Under the pieces are notes generated by a model, which worked only from the letters and a program-made list of their open reading frames with translations, made no database searches and had not been told where the DNA came from. Shown piece by piece: positions 2,972-22,130 of a DNA stretch of 35,057 nucleotides (the stretch's first letter is position 1; the number at the start of each line of letters is the position of its first letter). A program made the translations under genes and the position numbers. Location of the stretch: the NCBI GenBank assembly GCA_030653935.1, contig JAURYL010000127.1, positions 1 to 35,057 on the forward strand, written 5' to 3'. The stretch comes from Pseudomonadota bacterium. GTDB lineage: Bacteria; Pseudomonadota; Gammaproteobacteria; Burkholderiales; Thiobacillaceae.

Positions 2972-4219
2972 ATGACGCTAGTTTCCCCCTTTGCCGCGTT
3001 GCGTCCCGCCCCCGGCCGCGCCCCGGAAGTGATCGCGCCGCCCTATGACGTGCTCAATACCGAAGAAGCGCGGGCGCTCGCCGATGGCAGGCCGTGGAGT
3101 TTCCTGCACATCTCCAAACCGGAGATCGATCTGCCCCCCGGCACCGATCCTTACGCGCCCGAGGTGTATGCCAAGGCGGCGGAGAACCTGAAGAAGATGG
3201 TGGCCGCCGGGGTGCTGCAACAGGATGAGCAAGCCTGTTACTACGCCTATCGCCTGATCATGGGCGAGCACGTCCAGGTTGGCCTGGTGGCCGCCGCCAG
3301 CGTCGCCGACTACGACACCAACCGCATCCGCAAACACGAGTTCACCCGCCCGGACAAGGAAGACGACCGCGTGCGCCAGATCGAAGCGCTCGACGCCCAG
3401 ACCGGCCCGGTGTTGTTGGCTTATCCGAATGCGCCGGAAGTGGATGCCATCCTCGCCACCGCCACCCAGGGCGAGCCGGATTCCGACGGCATCGGCGACG
3501 GGGTGGCCGGCGGCGGCGTGCGCCATACGCTGTGGGTGATTCGCGATGCCGGCGCCATCGCCCGGCTGACCGAATTATTCGATGCCATGCCCGCGCTCTA
3601 CATCGCTGACGGCCATCACCGTTCCGCGTCCGCCAGCCGCATTTGCGCGACGAGAAAAGCAGCCAATCCTTCCCATACCGGCGATGAGCCCTACAACACT
3701 TTCCTCTCGGTGATCTTCCCGCATCACCAGATGCGTATCTTCGATTACAACCGGGTGATCAAGGATATGAATGGCCTGTCCGAGCCGGCCTTCATGGAGA
3801 AGGTTGCGGAAAACTTCATGATCGAGCTGTCGAACGAAGCGGTGAAACCCGCCGCGCCCGGCGAGTTCGGCCTCTATCTCAATGGCCGCTGGAACAAGCT
3901 GACCATCCGCGCCGATCTGATCCCAGCCGACCCGGTGGGGCGCCTTGATGTCAGCCTGCTGCAAAACAACCTGATCGCCCCCATCCTCGGCATTGCCGAC
4001 CAGCGCCGCGACAAGCGCATCGACTTCGTCGGCGGCATTCGCGGTCTGGGTGGATTGGAAAAACGGGTGGACTCCGGCGAGATGGCCCTGGCCCTGTCGC
4101 TGCACGCCACCAGCATGGAAGACCTGATGGCCGTGGCCGACGCCAACGAAGTCATGCCGCCCAAGTCCACCTGGTTCGAGCCCAAGCTGGCCGACGGGCT
4201 GGCTTCGCATCTGCTGTGA
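2972..4219 (+). CDS. DUF1015 family protein
   Basis: This is a 415-residue protein of the DUF1015 family, recognised by the N-terminal LVSPFAALRPAPGRAPEVIAPPYDV, the RKHEFTRPDKEDDR segment and the ALYIADGHHRSASA block. The family is widespread in bacteria and archaea and has no firmly established function that I can state. The conserved His-His-Arg suggests a phosphate or nucleotide ligand. The ATG at 2972 is chosen because AGGA (2961-2964) sits 7 nt upstream and family members begin at this point; an in-frame start at 2900 would overlap the divergent gene. About 60 bp separate the two divergent starts. No membrane segment or signal peptide is visible. Confidence 0.85.
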   Translation: MTLVSPFAALRPAPGRAPEVIAPPYDVLNTEEARALADGRPWSFLHISKPEIDLPPGTDPYAPEVYAKAAENLKKMVAAGVLQQDEQACYYAYRLIMGEHVQVGLVAAASVADYDTNRIRKHEFTRPDKEDDRVRQIEALDAQTGPVLLAYPNAPEVDAILATATQGEPDSDGIGDGVAGGGVRHTLWVIRDAGAIARLTELFDAMPALYIADGHHRSASASRICATRKAANPSHTGDEPYNTFLSVIFPHHQMRIFDYNRVIKDMNGLSEPAFMEKVAENFMIELSNEAVKPAAPGEFGLYLNGRWNKLTIRADLIPADPVGRLDVSLLQNNLIAPILGIADQRRDKRIDFVGGIRGLGGLEKRVDSGEMALALSLHATSMEDLMAVADANEVMPPKSTWFEPKLADGLASHLL

Positions 4220-4243
4220 TCTTTTCCCGCAAGTTCAGCCAGA

Positions 4244-4349
4244 TTCCCCCCCCCTTTACCAAAGGGGGGCAGGGGGGATTTAGCGACGGTTGTGCGAGTG
4301 CCGCGCTTGGAGAAATCCCCCCCAGCCCCCCTTTTGCAAAGGGGGGGGC
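4244..4349. repeat. Inverted pair of G/C-tract repeats (CCCCCTTT...AAAGGGGG type)
   Basis: A unit of about 37 nt (4244-4281: a C tract, CTTTACCAAAGGGGGGCAGG, then GGGGATTT) recurs inverted at 4313-4349. Each unit is itself palindromic around the central TTT...AAA. This family of dispersed repeats is common in Betaproteobacteria and cyanobacteria. The pair fills almost the whole 166-bp gap between the DUF1015 gene and tsaB. It could act as a transcript-end hairpin, but no U tract follows. Confidence 0.8.
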
Positions 4350-4385
4350 GCTTCGTGGTGATGTCCTTTTGCACAGGGGGGGACT

Positions 4386-5129
4386 GTGAAGCTCCTCGCC
4401 TTCGATACCGCCAGCGAATGGTGTACCGCCGCCTTGCTGGTCGATGGCGCGGTCAGTTTCCGCGCCGTACATGCCGGGCAGACGCATTCCCAATTGCTTG
4501 CCCCGATGCTGGGTGAACTGCTGGCCGAGGCCGGTCTGAGCTACCGGCAACTCGACGGCCTCGTTTACGGCATGGGGCCGGGTTCCTTCACCGGCCTGCG
4601 TATCGCCTGTGGCGTGGCGCAAGGGCTGGCGCTGGGCGCCAACCTGCCGGTTTTGGGTGTCTCCACCCTGGAAGCGTTGGCCGAGGAAGCCGGAAATGCC
4701 CCTCACCCCCAGCCCCTCTCCCGCCTGCGGGAGAGGGGAGCTTCGAGCTCCCCTCCGGGGAAGGAGATTGTGGAAGAAGTGCTGGCCTGCCTGGATGCGC
4801 GCATGAACGAGGTCTACGCCGCGCTCTATCGCCGTGAAGGCGCCGGCTGGCGCGCGCTCGCCGGGCCGGTCGTTTGCCCGCCGCAGGCCGCGCCACTGCC
4901 GGAAAGCCCCGGCTGCATCGGCGCCGGCCCCGGCTTCGCCGCCTATCCAGCACTGGTCGAACGCATGCAAGGCCGTCTCGTTCGCACCGCCGCCGACGCC
5001 ATTCCCCATGCCCGCGCCATCGTCAGGCTGGCGGCGCCTCGCTACGCCGTCGGCGAGTTCGGCGCGCCGGAAACAGCGGAACCGCTCTATGTGCGCAACA
5101 AGGTGGCGCTCAAGGTGAGTGAGCGATGA
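4386..5129 (+). CDS. tsaB: tRNA t6A37 synthesis protein TsaB
   Basis: TsaB is the scaffold partner of TsaD and TsaE in making N6-threonylcarbamoyladenosine at position 37 of ANN-decoding tRNAs. The 247-residue protein shows the ASKHA fold start MKLLAFDTASEWCTAAL, the HSQLLAPML helix and the signature GMGPGSFTGLRIACGVAQGLA. It is longer than usual (about 225-235). The excess is residues of about 104-127, encoded by a palindromic repeat at 4697-4762, between VSTLEALAEEAG and IVEEVLACLDARMNEVY. The insertion falls in a predicted loop, so function is probably kept. The stop overlaps the rimI start (ATGA at 5126), the usual tsaB-rimI arrangement. The ATG at 4386 matches the family N terminus. Confidence 0.93.
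   Translation: MKLLAFDTASEWCTAALLVDGAVSFRAVHAGQTHSQLLAPMLGELLAEAGLSYRQLDGLVYGMGPGSFTGLRIACGVAQGLALGANLPVLGVSTLEALAEEAGNAPHPQPLSRLRERGASSSPPGKEIVEEVLACLDARMNEVYAALYRREGAGWRALAGPVVCPPQAAPLPESPGCIGAGPGFAAYPALVERMQGRLVRTAADAIPHARAIVRLAAPRYAVGEFGAPETAEPLYVRNKVALKVSER
4697..4762. repeat. In-frame palindromic repeat within tsaB
   Basis: The segment contains CCCCTCACCCCCAGCCCCTC and the perfect palindrome CCCCTCTCCCGCC/TGCGGGAGAGGGG (4713-4738), then CCCCTCCGGGGAAGG. This is the widespread 'CCCCTCACCC...CTCTCCC' intergenic repeat. Here it stays open and adds about 23 residues (Pro-, Arg- and Ser-rich) to TsaB. Confidence 0.75.
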
Positions 5130-5590
5130 ATGCCCTGTTGAAGCCGCTGGAAATGGCGTTCCGGCCGATGCGTTCGGAAGACCTGGATGCGCTGATCAAG
5201 ATCGAGCGCGCCGCCTATCCCTACCCCTGGACCCTGGTCAATTTTCGCGATTGCCTGGACTCCGGCTATTCCAGTTGGGTGGGGGAAGTCGAGGGCGCGA
5301 TGGCCGGCTACTGGGTGATGATGCTGGCGGTGGGTGAGGGGCACATCCTCAACTGCTGCATCGCCCCCGCCTGGCAGGGGCGCGGCTTTGGCCGCTCGCT
5401 GGTGGAGAACCTCATCGACACCGCCCGCCACCACGGCACCGAAACGCTTTACCTGGAAGTGCGCCCCTCCAACACCCGCGCCGTGAATCTGTACGAACGC
5501 CTCGGTTTCGACGGCATCGCCCGCCGCCGCAACTACTACCCGGCCGACCAGGGGCGCGAAGACGCCCTGGTCATGCGGATGATCCTGTGA
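5126..5590 (+). CDS. rimI: Ribosomal protein S18 alanine N-acetyltransferase RimI
   Basis: The 154-residue GNAT-family protein matches RimI: FRPMRSEDLDALIKIERAAYPYPWT at the N terminus, the acetyl-CoA pyrophosphate loop QGRGFGRSLVENLI, then LEVRPSNTRAVNLYERLGF and the C-terminal RRNYYPA..GREDALVMRM block. RimI acetylates the N-terminal Ala of S18 and often lies directly after tsaB, as here with a 4-nt ATGA overlap. Its stop TGA overlaps the ATG of the next gene (TGATG at 5588-5592), so tsaB-rimI-udg form one translationally coupled operon. Nothing unusual is seen in the motifs. Confidence 0.93.
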   Translation: MNALLKPLEMAFRPMRSEDLDALIKIERAAYPYPWTLVNFRDCLDSGYSSWVGEVEGAMAGYWVMMLAVGEGHILNCCIAPAWQGRGFGRSLVENLIDTARHHGTETLYLEVRPSNTRAVNLYERLGFDGIARRRNYYPADQGREDALVMRMIL

Positions 5591-6897
5591 TGCTCACGCG
5601 CGAGGATTGCTTCAAGGAAATGGGCCTGCTGCCGCGCTGGCGGCTGAAGAATGTAGCGCCGGCGTCTCGCCGGCCCGCTGACGACGTTACAACCCCACCA
5701 GACAGCAAACACCCGCACCTGACCCAGGGCATCCACACACGCGGCTACCTGCCTCACGTCAAAGCCCAGGGCGCGACCTACTTTGTGACGTTCCGTCTGG
5801 CTGACAGTCTGCCGGCGGAAGTGCTGGAATCCTGGGCGGACGCGCCGGAATCCGAACGGGCGAGGAACAGCGAACGCTATCTTGATCGGGGCGTGGGTGA
5901 GTGCCTGTTGAGCCGGAACGAGATCGCCGACATCGTGGTTCAGGCGTTGCGTCACCATGAGGGCGCGCGTTATACGCTGCATGAATATGTGGTCATGCCC
6001 AATCATGTGCATCTGCTGCTGACGCCGCTGGGTGAACACACGTTGAGCGAGATATTGCACAGCCTGAAGTCCTGGACTGCGCAGAAAATCAACGGCTTGT
6101 TGGGACGCAACGGGGCGATCTGGCAACGGGAAAGTTTTGACCGGGTGGTTCGGGACGACGACGAGATGCGCGCGCTCGCGGCTTACATCCGAAGGAACCC
6201 GGTGAAGGCGAGGTTGTGCGCCGAGGAAGATGGGTTTCGCTTCGGTAGCGCCTGGAAAAACGCAGGCAGGGATGCCTGCGCTACATCCCCTGTAGCGCAG
6301 GCATCCCTGCCTGCGTCTGTCCAAAGCCTCGACTGGCCCGCTCTCACCGCAGCCATCAAGACCTGCACCCTGTGCGACCTGCACCAGACCCGTACCCAGG
6401 GGGTGCCGGGGGTGGGCGACATTCACGCCGACTGGTTGTTCATCGGCGAGGCGCCGGGGGCGGATGAAGATCGTCAGGGTGAGCCCTTCGTCGGCCAGGC
6501 CGGCAAGTTGCTCGACGCCATGCTCGGCGCCCTGCGCTTGAAGCGCGGCGAGAACGTCTACATCGCCAACGTGCTGAAGTCGCGCCCGCCCGGCAATCGC
6601 GATCCGCAGCCGGCGGAAGTCGCCGCTTGCCTGCCTTACCTGGAGCGGCAGATCGATCTGATCAAGCCCAAGCTCATCGTTGCCGTCGGCCGTATCGCGG
6701 CGCAGAACCTGCTGCGTACCGACACGCCCATCGGCAAGCTGCGCGGGCGGGTGCATGAGTATCGCGGCCTGCCCCTGGTGGTGACCTATCATCCCGCCTA
6801 CCTGCTGCGCAGCCCGGCGGACAAGGCCAAGGTCTGGGAAGACTTGGTGCTGGCGGTGACCACGATGAATCACTTGAAAGCCGGCACCAAGCCCTGA
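5590..6897 (+). CDS. Family 4 uracil-DNA glycosylase split by an in-frame RAYT transposase domain
   Basis: This is one 435-codon open frame. Residues 1-21 (LTREDCFKEMGLLPRWRLKN) match the start of betaproteobacterial family 4 uracil-DNA glycosylases. Residues 248-435 are the rest of that enzyme: CTLC (C259, C262), GEAPGADED at 286, EPFVGQAGK, C347 and HPAYLLR at 401. Between them lies a full REP-associated tyrosine transposase (about 45-225) with HUH (H139, H141) and Tyr Y199. REP-coded residues flank it on both sides. A normal family 4 enzyme has roughly 200-280 residues. The third cluster cysteine expected in the VLKxRPPGNR block is Ser (S331). GTG at 5587 is an alternative start. Activity of either half is unknown: the frame could give a fusion protein, or the glycosylase could be disabled. 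Confidence 0.9.
   Translation: MLTREDCFKEMGLLPRWRLKNVAPASRRPADDVTTPPDSKHPHLTQGIHTRGYLPHVKAQGATYFVTFRLADSLPAEVLESWADAPESERARNSERYLDRGVGECLLSRNEIADIVVQALRHHEGARYTLHEYVVMPNHVHLLLTPLGEHTLSEILHSLKSWTAQKINGLLGRNGAIWQRESFDRVVRDDDEMRALAAYIRRNPVKARLCAEEDGFRFGSAWKNAGRDACATSPVAQASLPASVQSLDWPALTAAIKTCTLCDLHQTRTQGVPGVGDIHADWLFIGEAPGADEDRQGEPFVGQAGKLLDAMLGALRLKRGENVYIANVLKSRPPGNRDPQPAEVAACLPYLERQIDLIKPKLIVAVGRIAAQNLLRTDTPIGKLRGRVHEYRGLPLVVTYHPAYLLRSPADKAKVWEDLVLAVTTMNHLKAGTKP
5653..6315 (+). mobile_element. RAYT (Y1/HUH transposase) insertion with flanking REP units
   Basis: The insertion begins with a REP unit of the GTAGCGCCGGCGTCTCGCCG type (5653-5672) and ends with a head-to-head pair of a different REP family (6261-6284 and 6292-6315, GTAGCGCAGGCATCCC...). 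Between them is a Y1-transposase domain starting near HTRGYLPHVKAQGATYFVTF, with MPNHVHLLL and AAYIRRNPVKARL, the HUH and Tyr motifs of RAYTs. These single-copy enzymes cut REP hairpins next to GTAG. Having different REP families on the two sides suggests more than one event. No stop codon separates it from the host gene on either side. Confidence 0.85.
6261..6315. repeat. REP family C, head-to-head pair inside udg
   Basis: The arm 6261-6284 (CGCAGGCAGGGATGCCTGCG, then CTAC) is followed by a 7-nt spacer and its exact reverse complement at 6292-6315. A single unit of the same family stands at 9803-9826. In the udg frame it encodes AGRDACATSPVAQASLPAS. Confidence 0.85.
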
Positions 6898-9802: not shown

Positions 9803-9826
9803 CGCAGGCAGGGATGCCTGCGCTAC
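9803..9826 (-). repeat. Single REP unit, family C
   Basis: The 24-nt unit is identical to 6261-6284 inside udg; on the minus strand it starts GTAGCGCAGGCATCCC. It ends 11 bp before the TTG proposed as the start of the yhaO-like gene and contains an in-frame ATG (9814). Confidence 0.8.
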
Positions 9827-21430: not shown

Positions 21431-21447
21431 TAGCGCGGAGGATTACG
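21431..21447. repeat. REP-like remnant at the 3' end of the RAYT gene
   Basis: The sequence CGTAGCGCGGAGGATTACG lies over and just past the RAYT stop (TAA, minus strand 21445-21443). On the minus strand it reads GTAATCCTCCGCGCTAC, in the style of the short repeats that flank RAYT genes. Only one arm is seen. Confidence 0.35.
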
Positions 21448-21988
21448 ATTGTTCCTCGGGCGGCGGGCAATCACGGGTAATTCTTGAGATGGCGGCGGGG
21501 GGGCCGAGCTCGGACCAGTTTTCCGCATAGTGCCCCTGCGCGATCCGCGCTGGCAGGCTCGACCAGGGGTAATCGGCGGCGCGCGCGACCTGGCCGTGGC
21601 GAACCGGGTCGTAGTGGATGAAGTCCAGATAGGCGCGTAGATCATCGACGCCGTAGACGCACCGGTATTCGATGGCCTGCTCCCAGAACGGGGTGCTGTT
21701 GGGCAACTCCCGTTCCAGTAGCGGCGTCGCCCTGCGCCTGGCGCGCATGAAGTTTGTGCGCAGTTCATTCATGACCGCTGAACATTCGTGTTCGGCGGGC
21801 AGGCTGAAGAGAAAATGCGCATGGTCATCGAGCAGGACATAGCCGGCGACAATTAATTTGAATCGCTTCTTGGTCTCCGTGAAGCAGTCCAGCAGCAATT
21901 GCTTCAGCTTTCCCTGCGCCAGGAGTGGCGCGCGCTCGTAGGCGCGTAAGGTGACAAATTGATAGGGGGAAACGCGTGAGGCGGACAC
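21443..21988 (-). CDS. REP-associated tyrosine transposase (RAYT) with Phe in place of the catalytic Tyr
   Basis: This 181-residue Y1/HUH-fold protein is of the RAYT type: SRVSPYQFVTLRAYERAPL, YVLLDDHAHFLFSLP (HUH pair H56, H58), FMRARRRATPLLEREL, PFWEQAIEYRCVYGVDDLRAYLDFIHYDPVRHG and DYPWSSL. In RAYTs such as the E. coli enzyme the catalytic Tyr is in a DYIxxNPVKHG block; here the block is DFIHYDPVRHG, with TTC for F123. The neighbouring Y126 cannot be assumed to substitute. The GTG at 21988 is chosen because CCGGAG lies 6 nt upstream and the domain begins there; the frame stays open to ATG 22102 without recognisable content. It probably stems from the same mobile family as the many REPs nearby, but DNA cleavage is doubtful. 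Confidence 0.8.
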   Translation of the reverse strand: MSASRVSPYQFVTLRAYERAPLLAQGKLKQLLLDCFTETKKRFKLIVAGYVLLDDHAHFLFSLPAEHECSAVMNELRTNFMRARRRATPLLERELPNSTPFWEQAIEYRCVYGVDDLRAYLDFIHYDPVRHGQVARAADYPWSSLPARIAQGHYAENWSELGPPAAISRITRDCPPPEEQS

Positions 21989-22100
21989 GAGATGCTCCGG
22001 AGTGCACTGAGAGGACGATGGGCAGTGTCGATTAATCGCCCGGCGGGCGCTATGAAGCCGGTCACAGCTTGAGGGGTTTCCACCAAGTTGCACCGAAGGC

Positions 22101-22130
22101 AAAAAAAATGCGCCCGGGTGGGCGCATTTT
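22101..22130 (-). terminator. Rho-independent terminator of the repeat-protein gene
   Basis: On the minus strand AAAATGCGCCC, loop ACC, GGGCGCATTTT is followed by a further TTTT, 41 bp past the stop codon at 22171. It is a strong stem with a U tract. A second hairpin (22135-22154) precedes it. Confidence 0.9.

Follow-up and report, generated by a model that had tools for sequence, protein, structure and literature searches.

Inteins and other homing elements lie in frame and return repeatedly to the same position of a host gene. RAYTs (TnpAREP), which together with their REPs make up REPtrons, are regarded as domesticated genes that do not move, and the reason for their retention by hosts is an open question. 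PMC8049555 describes them as single-copy genes which are inherited vertically and do not copy themselves, and PMC6006769 gives no evidence of mobility for class 2 RAYT genes, for which horizontal transfer is inferred. An earlier classification set aside members of unusual length, which it took for fusions or misannotations (PMC6006769), and nested cases may therefore have been overlooked. TnpAREP genes are described as close to housekeeping genes (PMC8266576), and in-frame REPs and Rickettsia-type palindromes are known in repair and replication genes (PMC3733652). A RAYT inside a uracil-DNA glycosylase (UDG) or any other gene was not reported in the mostly non-subscription literature that was searched.

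The window, which is the whole analysed stretch of 35,057 nucleotides from a member of the Thiobacillaceae, carries on its forward strand an open frame of 435 to 436 residues (5587 or 5590 to 6897) that is unbroken by stop codons. In this frame a 21-residue N-terminal motif precedes a complete RAYT; an inverted REP pair, translated in the same frame, then leads into a family 4 UDG (Table 1). The initial annotation had placed a RAYT in frame inside a UDG, which is confirmed by the scores of both domains above the curated cut-offs of NCBIfam, and it had described the gene as coupled to tsaB-rimI, which agrees with the overlap of the rimI stop and the udg start in all ten nested genomes of the genus. 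As this layout recurs in 17 genomes, it is not due to chance. A second UDG-superfamily gene of the same genome lies on a different contig. Two short repeat-like insertions were noticed by eye further upstream, namely a proline-rich peptide in frame within tsaB (4698-4766) and a PPFxKGG-type repeat ahead of it (4216-4389).

Table 1. Features of the nested locus and the genes that precede it
Feature	Position	Strand	Basis
tsaB, first in the tsaB-rimI-udg run	4386..5129	+	Pfam TsaD family match; named from context
rimI (GNAT acetyltransferase), stop overlaps udg start	5126..5590	+	frame and Pfam
UDG N-terminal motif (21 residues)	5590..5652	+	comparison of UDG loci; AF2
5' REP, translated in frame	5653..5674	+	read directly; loop one base shorter than in the search pattern
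RAYT domain, residues 44-224	5719..6261	+	Pfam, NCBIfam, alignment, profile and fold match to 4ER8
REPIN-like inverted REP pair, in-frame RAYT-UDG linker	6253..6323	+	inverted-repeat and REP pattern matches
Core of the family 4 UDG, stop codon included; GEAPG..ED, HPAYLLR	6331..6897	+	Pfam, NCBIfam, fold

The RAYT part is matched by Pfam Y1_Tnp at residues 126-202 (E 6.7e-7) and narrowly passes the NCBIfam model REP_Tyr_transpos (NF047646) with 82.1 bits against a cut-off of 80. Its nearest solved relative by profile is TnpAREP of E. coli (PDB 4ER8, E 1.3e-8), which the predicted fold also matches in Foldseek (E 1.3e-5). The catalytic residues had been assigned correctly as H139, H141 and Y199; they are invariant in an eight-row alignment together with N203 and P204, with Y199 in a Y---NP context, and the HUH and Tyr-NP motifs are kept in all 16 RAYT rows as well as in Methylobacillus sp. 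MM3. The genome holds five Y1_Tnp matches, and pattern REPs adjoin the nested one only. A second, distantly related RAYT-like frame of 219 residues is present in the window on the reverse strand (21443-22102), with no pattern REPs adjoining it. Two other identities were rejected: a known defence protein, with no PADLOC match at E 0.001, and an intein, since Pfam at E 0.001 yields UDG and Y1_Tnp only and no Hint or splicing domain.

The glycosylase part has a Pfam UDG match at residues 273-419 (E 1.5e-37), 214.9 bits against a cut-off of 125.3 for NCBIfam UDG_fam4 (TIGR00758), and family 4 UDGs as the Foldseek matches of the predicted structure (best E 1.8e-18). All 28 UDG rows of the alignment share the motifs GEAPG..ED and HPAYLLR; the plain UDG of G209, which stands outside this alignment, has the variant GEGPG. 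In family 4 UDGs, four cysteines hold an iron-sulfur cluster. Here C259, C262 and C347 are kept and Ser331 (6580-6582) occupies the expected position of the third cysteine, where serine is also found in 26 of the 72 UDG loci L046-L117.

REPs had been reported to bound the transposase in two families. They are present on both sides, and the two families are read instead as C/G-stem and A/T-stem variants of what appears to be one GTAG-type REP. The 5' unit reads GTAGCGCCGGCGTCTCGCCGGC, and the inverted pair, with 33-nt arms that are 94% complementary, contains GTAGCGCAGGCATCCCTGCCTGC in both orientations (6262-6284 on the reverse strand and 6292-6314 on the forward strand). Both stem types are represented among the 59 pattern sites in the genome of the window, counted with a search pattern that is one base longer than the exact 5' unit. 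The window holds one further, solitary REP of this family at 9804-9826 on the reverse strand, where it directly follows a PhoH-like gene and precedes a gene for an SbcD-like phosphoesterase, both named by eye. A very stable RNA hairpin is predicted at 6230-6345 (-73.8 kcal/mol, z -9.7); such a hairpin between the two halves of the message could lower UDG synthesis.

Whether the frame gives one product or two bears on the glycosylase-HUH fusion that had been put forward initially, and the sequence favours the fusion. In four of the 12 genomes scanned (G000, G002, G012, G431) there is no in-frame ATG, GTG or TTG between the end of the RAYT and the CxxC cysteine pair of the UDG, which favours one polypeptide; candidate start codons are present there in the other eight. 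Separate translation of the UDG core is thus disfavoured in those four genomes only, and separate products may also come about through start codons within the RAYT or through cleavage at the linkers. Both domains are also predicted to fold. An AF2 model from 45 rows, used in place of one from eight rows with a pLDDT of 51, has a mean pLDDT of 80.2, with the RAYT at about residues 61-206, the UDG at 243-430 with mostly more than 90, and less than 50 at residues 26-58 and 219-239, which marks the linkers as predicted to be disordered. Taken together, a single RAYT-UDG fusion polypeptide is favoured by sequence and model. Between species the linkers range from 17 to 36 residues on the 5' side and from 35 to 85 on the 3' side and vary in REP content, with the frame kept in all except G403.

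The nesting of a RAYT in a UDG is far wider than the single case first described. It was found 17 times, of which 12 are open from end to end, four are cut by contig ends and one is broken, and the genus accounts for ten carriers among its 23 genomes, family f50 for six among ten, and Methylobacillus sp. MM3 for the last. Within the genus the frame is open from motif to end in eight genomes (G000, G002, G004, G011, G012, G015, G017, G019), split across two contigs with overlapping ends in G014, and cut in G018, where the contig ends before the UDG core; 12 of the 23 have a plain UDG, and no UDG was found in G016, which is 58% complete. In family f50, G248, G431 and G317 are open, G346 and G457 are cut by contig ends, and G285, G165 and G209 have plain UDGs. 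The broken case, G403 (L136/L151), lacks the REP linker after the RAYT and carries its UDG in another frame, which reflects either a real loss or an error of the metagenome-assembled genome (MAG).

These carriers were recovered by searches of different breadth. A search of the wider family, in which 109 of 117 genomes had a match, gave no further fused protein at E 1e-20; distant RAYTs would escape detection at this threshold. Among 399 genomes drawn from the order, 14 had a RAYT match at E 1e-14, comprising five genus carriers, the six f50 genomes with the RAYT in the UDG, G395 with the RAYT in an HsdR-like gene, and G080 and G438, whose RAYTs are not nested as judged from their frames. A draw of 369 genomes from the class gave five matches beyond that of the window, in frames of 149-232 residues. 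Named genomes supplied 307 UDG loci, the best 80 of which included eight nestings, seven of them in genus members already counted and the eighth in Methylobacillus sp. MM3 (NZ_LXTQ01000057.1), a RefSeq record not labelled as a MAG; L040, which is the same contig as a piece of G014, is cut. The UDG is not the sole host gene, because a related RAYT lies in frame within an HsdR-like type I restriction gene (L127 in G063 and L142 in G395, by eye); these two RAYTs are near-identical in two distant genera and have REP-like peptides on both sides. REP-like cores near the start of a plain UDG with no nested RAYT were seen in Parasulfuritortus cantonensis (L065) and Novimethylophilus kurashikiensis (L075), in the latter visible in the linker peptide. 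The linker of the plain UDG of G285 (L153) encodes a REP-like peptide, VALAPSPAS, with no exact core, which is perhaps the scar of a lost RAYT.

Matching REPs mostly accompany the nesting. In the genus the exact REP pattern occurs in ten of ten nested and in none of 13 other genomes, with no matches for a reversed-pattern control (Fisher 9e-7, kinship ignored). In the order draw it occurs in 16 of 399 genomes, that is in 11 of 11 nested against five of 388 without detected nesting, and the reversed control gave single matches in three genomes; these counts likewise ignore kinship, and the independent nested lineages number about four. Methylobacillus sp. MM3 has 24 sites, 18 exact and six with one mismatch (control 0). 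All six nested f50 genomes have the pattern, including G346 with four exact matches, none of them on its RAYT contig; the plain-UDG genomes G165 and G209 gave no exact match. The five genomes that have the pattern without detected nesting are G151 (58 matches), G375 (24), G285 (2), G193 (1) and G436 (1), of which G375 and G285 also belong to f50, G285 with a plain UDG and G375 with no UDG found. G151 has no RAYT of this lineage at E 1e-14, nor was a RAYT found near ten of its 58 sites that were sampled. REPs of a similar kind can therefore be present in a genome in which no RAYT of the lineage is detected, and those of G151 are left unexplained by the present reading.

The RAYT codons are under strong purifying selection. 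In 22 of 23 chosen pairs the dN/dS of the RAYT lies between 0.06 and 0.24, the 23rd pair being saturated, and in the nine of these pairs given a Fisher test purifying selection on the RAYT was significant throughout (p 2e-8 to 1e-22). For the UDG part the values of 22 pairs lie between 0.07 and 0.33, with the top value from the distant pair G000-G248. Retention of an open frame alone would not restrain amino-acid changes. In view of the strong selection on its codons, the insertion is neither recent nor decaying. Of the two explanations offered at the outset for the open frame, selection or a recent event, selection is borne out by fused homologues of 61-84% identity with these dN/dS values and the recent event is not. 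A pseudogene is rejected on the same grounds.

The history of the nesting was followed in trees of both parts. UDG trees were built without G209, with its motif variant, and without G018 and G457, whose contigs lack the UDG core. In the 100-row UDG tree, in which several genomes appear twice under two handles, the distribution of nesting needs five state changes, at least four of them forced by well-supported branches, and in the 28-row tree four changes, at least two forced. Eight genus carriers form one clade in the larger tree (100/97) with G004 outside it, the f50 carriers group with plain f50 genes, and Methylobacillus sp. MM3 is joined with a plain UDG from its own genus (100/95). This last genome is absent from the motif alignments, the 28-row tree, the dN/dS and approximately unbiased (AU) tests and the scan of linkers and start codons. 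In the RAYT tree, built without L003, L004, L160, L162, L005, L030, L035 and L037, the nested RAYTs form one group (100/100), which also holds the HsdR-nested pair and the solo RAYTs L158, L159 and L161, and five other solo RAYTs fall apart from it; the nested label needs two changes, at least one forced. The nested RAYTs may thus be one lineage of single origin. The RAYT of G004 is only 47% identical to that of the window; it is nearer to the f50 RAYTs in a smaller tree (94/91) and unplaced in the larger RAYT tree.

Within the genus the two parts disagree. In AU tests on eight of the ten genus carriers, leaving out G004 and G018, the RAYT data reject the UDG, the combined rimI and UDG, and the rimI trees (2e-39, 2e-12 and 1e-59, respectively), and the UDG data reject the RAYT tree (0.0045). 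With the rimI data, the AU test rejects the RAYT tree (0.0099), whereas KH (0.057) and SH (0.059) do not. The nucleotide identity between G012 and G014 drops from 91.3% in rimI to 71.8% in the RAYT and is 93.3% in the UDG. Judged by these comparisons, the RAYT segment has a history that differs from that of its flanks, and since the RAYT and flank data conflict and RAYT identity drops, exchange or re-entry of the cassette is the simplest reading. It is probable that RAYT cassettes arrived or were swapped at this single site on more than one occasion. The nesting itself probably has several origins, and the REP population accompanies it.

The N-terminal motif belongs to the host enzyme, being common to plain UDGs of other betaproteobacteria. 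It resembles ELGLxPxWRLR in most of the 72 loci L046-L117, escaped a script in seven, although it can be seen by eye in three of these, and is predicted to form a helix at residues 4-10 (AF2, pLDDT about 82). When 60 N-terminal 25-mers were compared with Pfam at E up to 10, DNA_III_psi was the sole family, matched by seven of them (best E 0.0049), and the other 53 gave no match. L079, the only one of these matches with a score displayed, aligns with psi profile positions 3-22 at 13.4 bits, below the Pfam cut-off of 22.2. A PDB profile search of the motif gave no psi at E up to 10, and residues 1-37 of the window protein gave no DNA_III_psi match. The motif weakly resembles the clamp-loader-binding peptide of the polymerase III psi subunit (HolD), which is no more than a lead; according to PMC3197488, the psi N-terminus is needed for clamp-loader binding. 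No link between psi, uracil-DNA glycosylase and polymerase III was found in the literature searched.

We consider it probable that a REPtron resides in a disordered linker of the UDG, with one fused product, a RAYT that maintains the REPs and repeated, homing-like entry. The REPtron would be translated in frame within a housekeeping enzyme, with expression supplied by the tsaB-rimI-udg run, to give one polypeptide of N-terminal motif, RAYT, REP-coded linker and UDG. The UDG half would retain its repair role, and the RAYT, with HUH and tyrosine intact, would cut and rejoin single-stranded REP hairpins, thereby maintaining the genomic REP population. RAYT cassettes of the lineage would enter or exchange at the one site several times as homing elements do, with no splicing. 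At the level of sequence, the frames are open, the motifs are intact, the RAYT is under purifying selection and has a discordant history, and REPs co-occur with it; we infer that the fusion is made with both halves active, that the REPs are driven by the nested RAYT, and the mode of cassette entry.

Most of this would be compatible with a RAYT that is selected solely for a REP-related role of its own in a linker that is expressed and tolerates it, with no functional tie to the UDG half; the RAYT may then be a selfish element tolerated in a repair gene. We hold this to be a little short of an even chance. It is in keeping with the linker being variable in plain UDGs and predicted to be disordered here, with REP-like cores beside two of 71 other UDG loci, and with the related RAYT nested in the HsdR-like gene. 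About four colonisations of one gene at one place speak for something beyond a site that is permissive at random, although the UDG and RAYT queries bias the detection of recurrence towards the UDG gene, and none of 15 plain UDG genes of the genus and f50 has a REP-like core, in a scan of a fixed 650-nt stretch that missed the linker in about ten loci where the gene lies elsewhere. One ancient insertion with vertical inheritance and many losses would account for the single clade of eight genus carriers' UDGs and the single group of nested RAYTs, but it is improbable in view of the changes forced on both UDG trees, the discord between RAYT and flanks in the genus, and the divergent RAYT of G004.

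An artefact of assembly or annotation, or a decaying pseudogene, can hardly be credited. Most carriers are MAGs or incomplete genomes and G403 is broken, but the layout is shared by many separate assemblies and by a RefSeq record not labelled as a MAG, which makes the assembly error considered in the initial annotation very unlikely, and the selection on the RAYT is strong. A nickase tethered to the replisome, in which the motif would bind the clamp loader as psi does and bring the RAYT to lagging-strand single-stranded DNA with REP hairpins, UDG linkers being favoured as sites because of this tethering, is a doubtful reading. It draws on DNA_III_psi as the sole family matched, on the role of the psi N-terminus, and on Y1 transposases, which act on lagging-strand single-stranded DNA and some of which are thought to bind the sliding clamp (PMC6006769). 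Against it stand the sub-threshold score of L079, the many peptides without a match and the blank results for psi in the PDB and for the peptide from the window. It is equally speculative that a REPtron which spreads by in-frame entry into one repair-enzyme linker, rides the replisome by the psi-like peptide of that enzyme and drives REPs would constitute a new class of translated, unspliced, homing-like element.

The recurrence of one RAYT lineage in one repair enzyme is unusual for a supposedly immobile element. As the matching REP population mostly tracks the nesting, there are natural pairs of genomes with and without it in which RAYT function can be compared, and the locus offers a ready-made HUH-glycosylase fusion for assay.

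The closest described system is the RAYT of REPtrons (TnpAY1 class 2), with which the nested element shares the HUH and Y---NP motifs, flanking GTAG REPs and dispersed REPs in the genome. By contrast, it has no stop codon of its own, lies in frame inside a host enzyme and has a history unlike that of its flanks, and it does not correspond to a stand-alone, vertically inherited gene, as it is nested and the RAYT and UDG trees are mutually rejected. For REPs and Rickettsia-type palindromes in genes PMC3733652 describes only the repeats, whereas here a whole transposase gene is carried along. The host enzyme has the core motifs and fold of a family 4 UDG and differs by Ser331 and a foreign domain of about 180 residues. 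Inteins differ in their splicing domain, which Pfam does not find here; as far as can be told from the sequence, the RAYT stays in the product.
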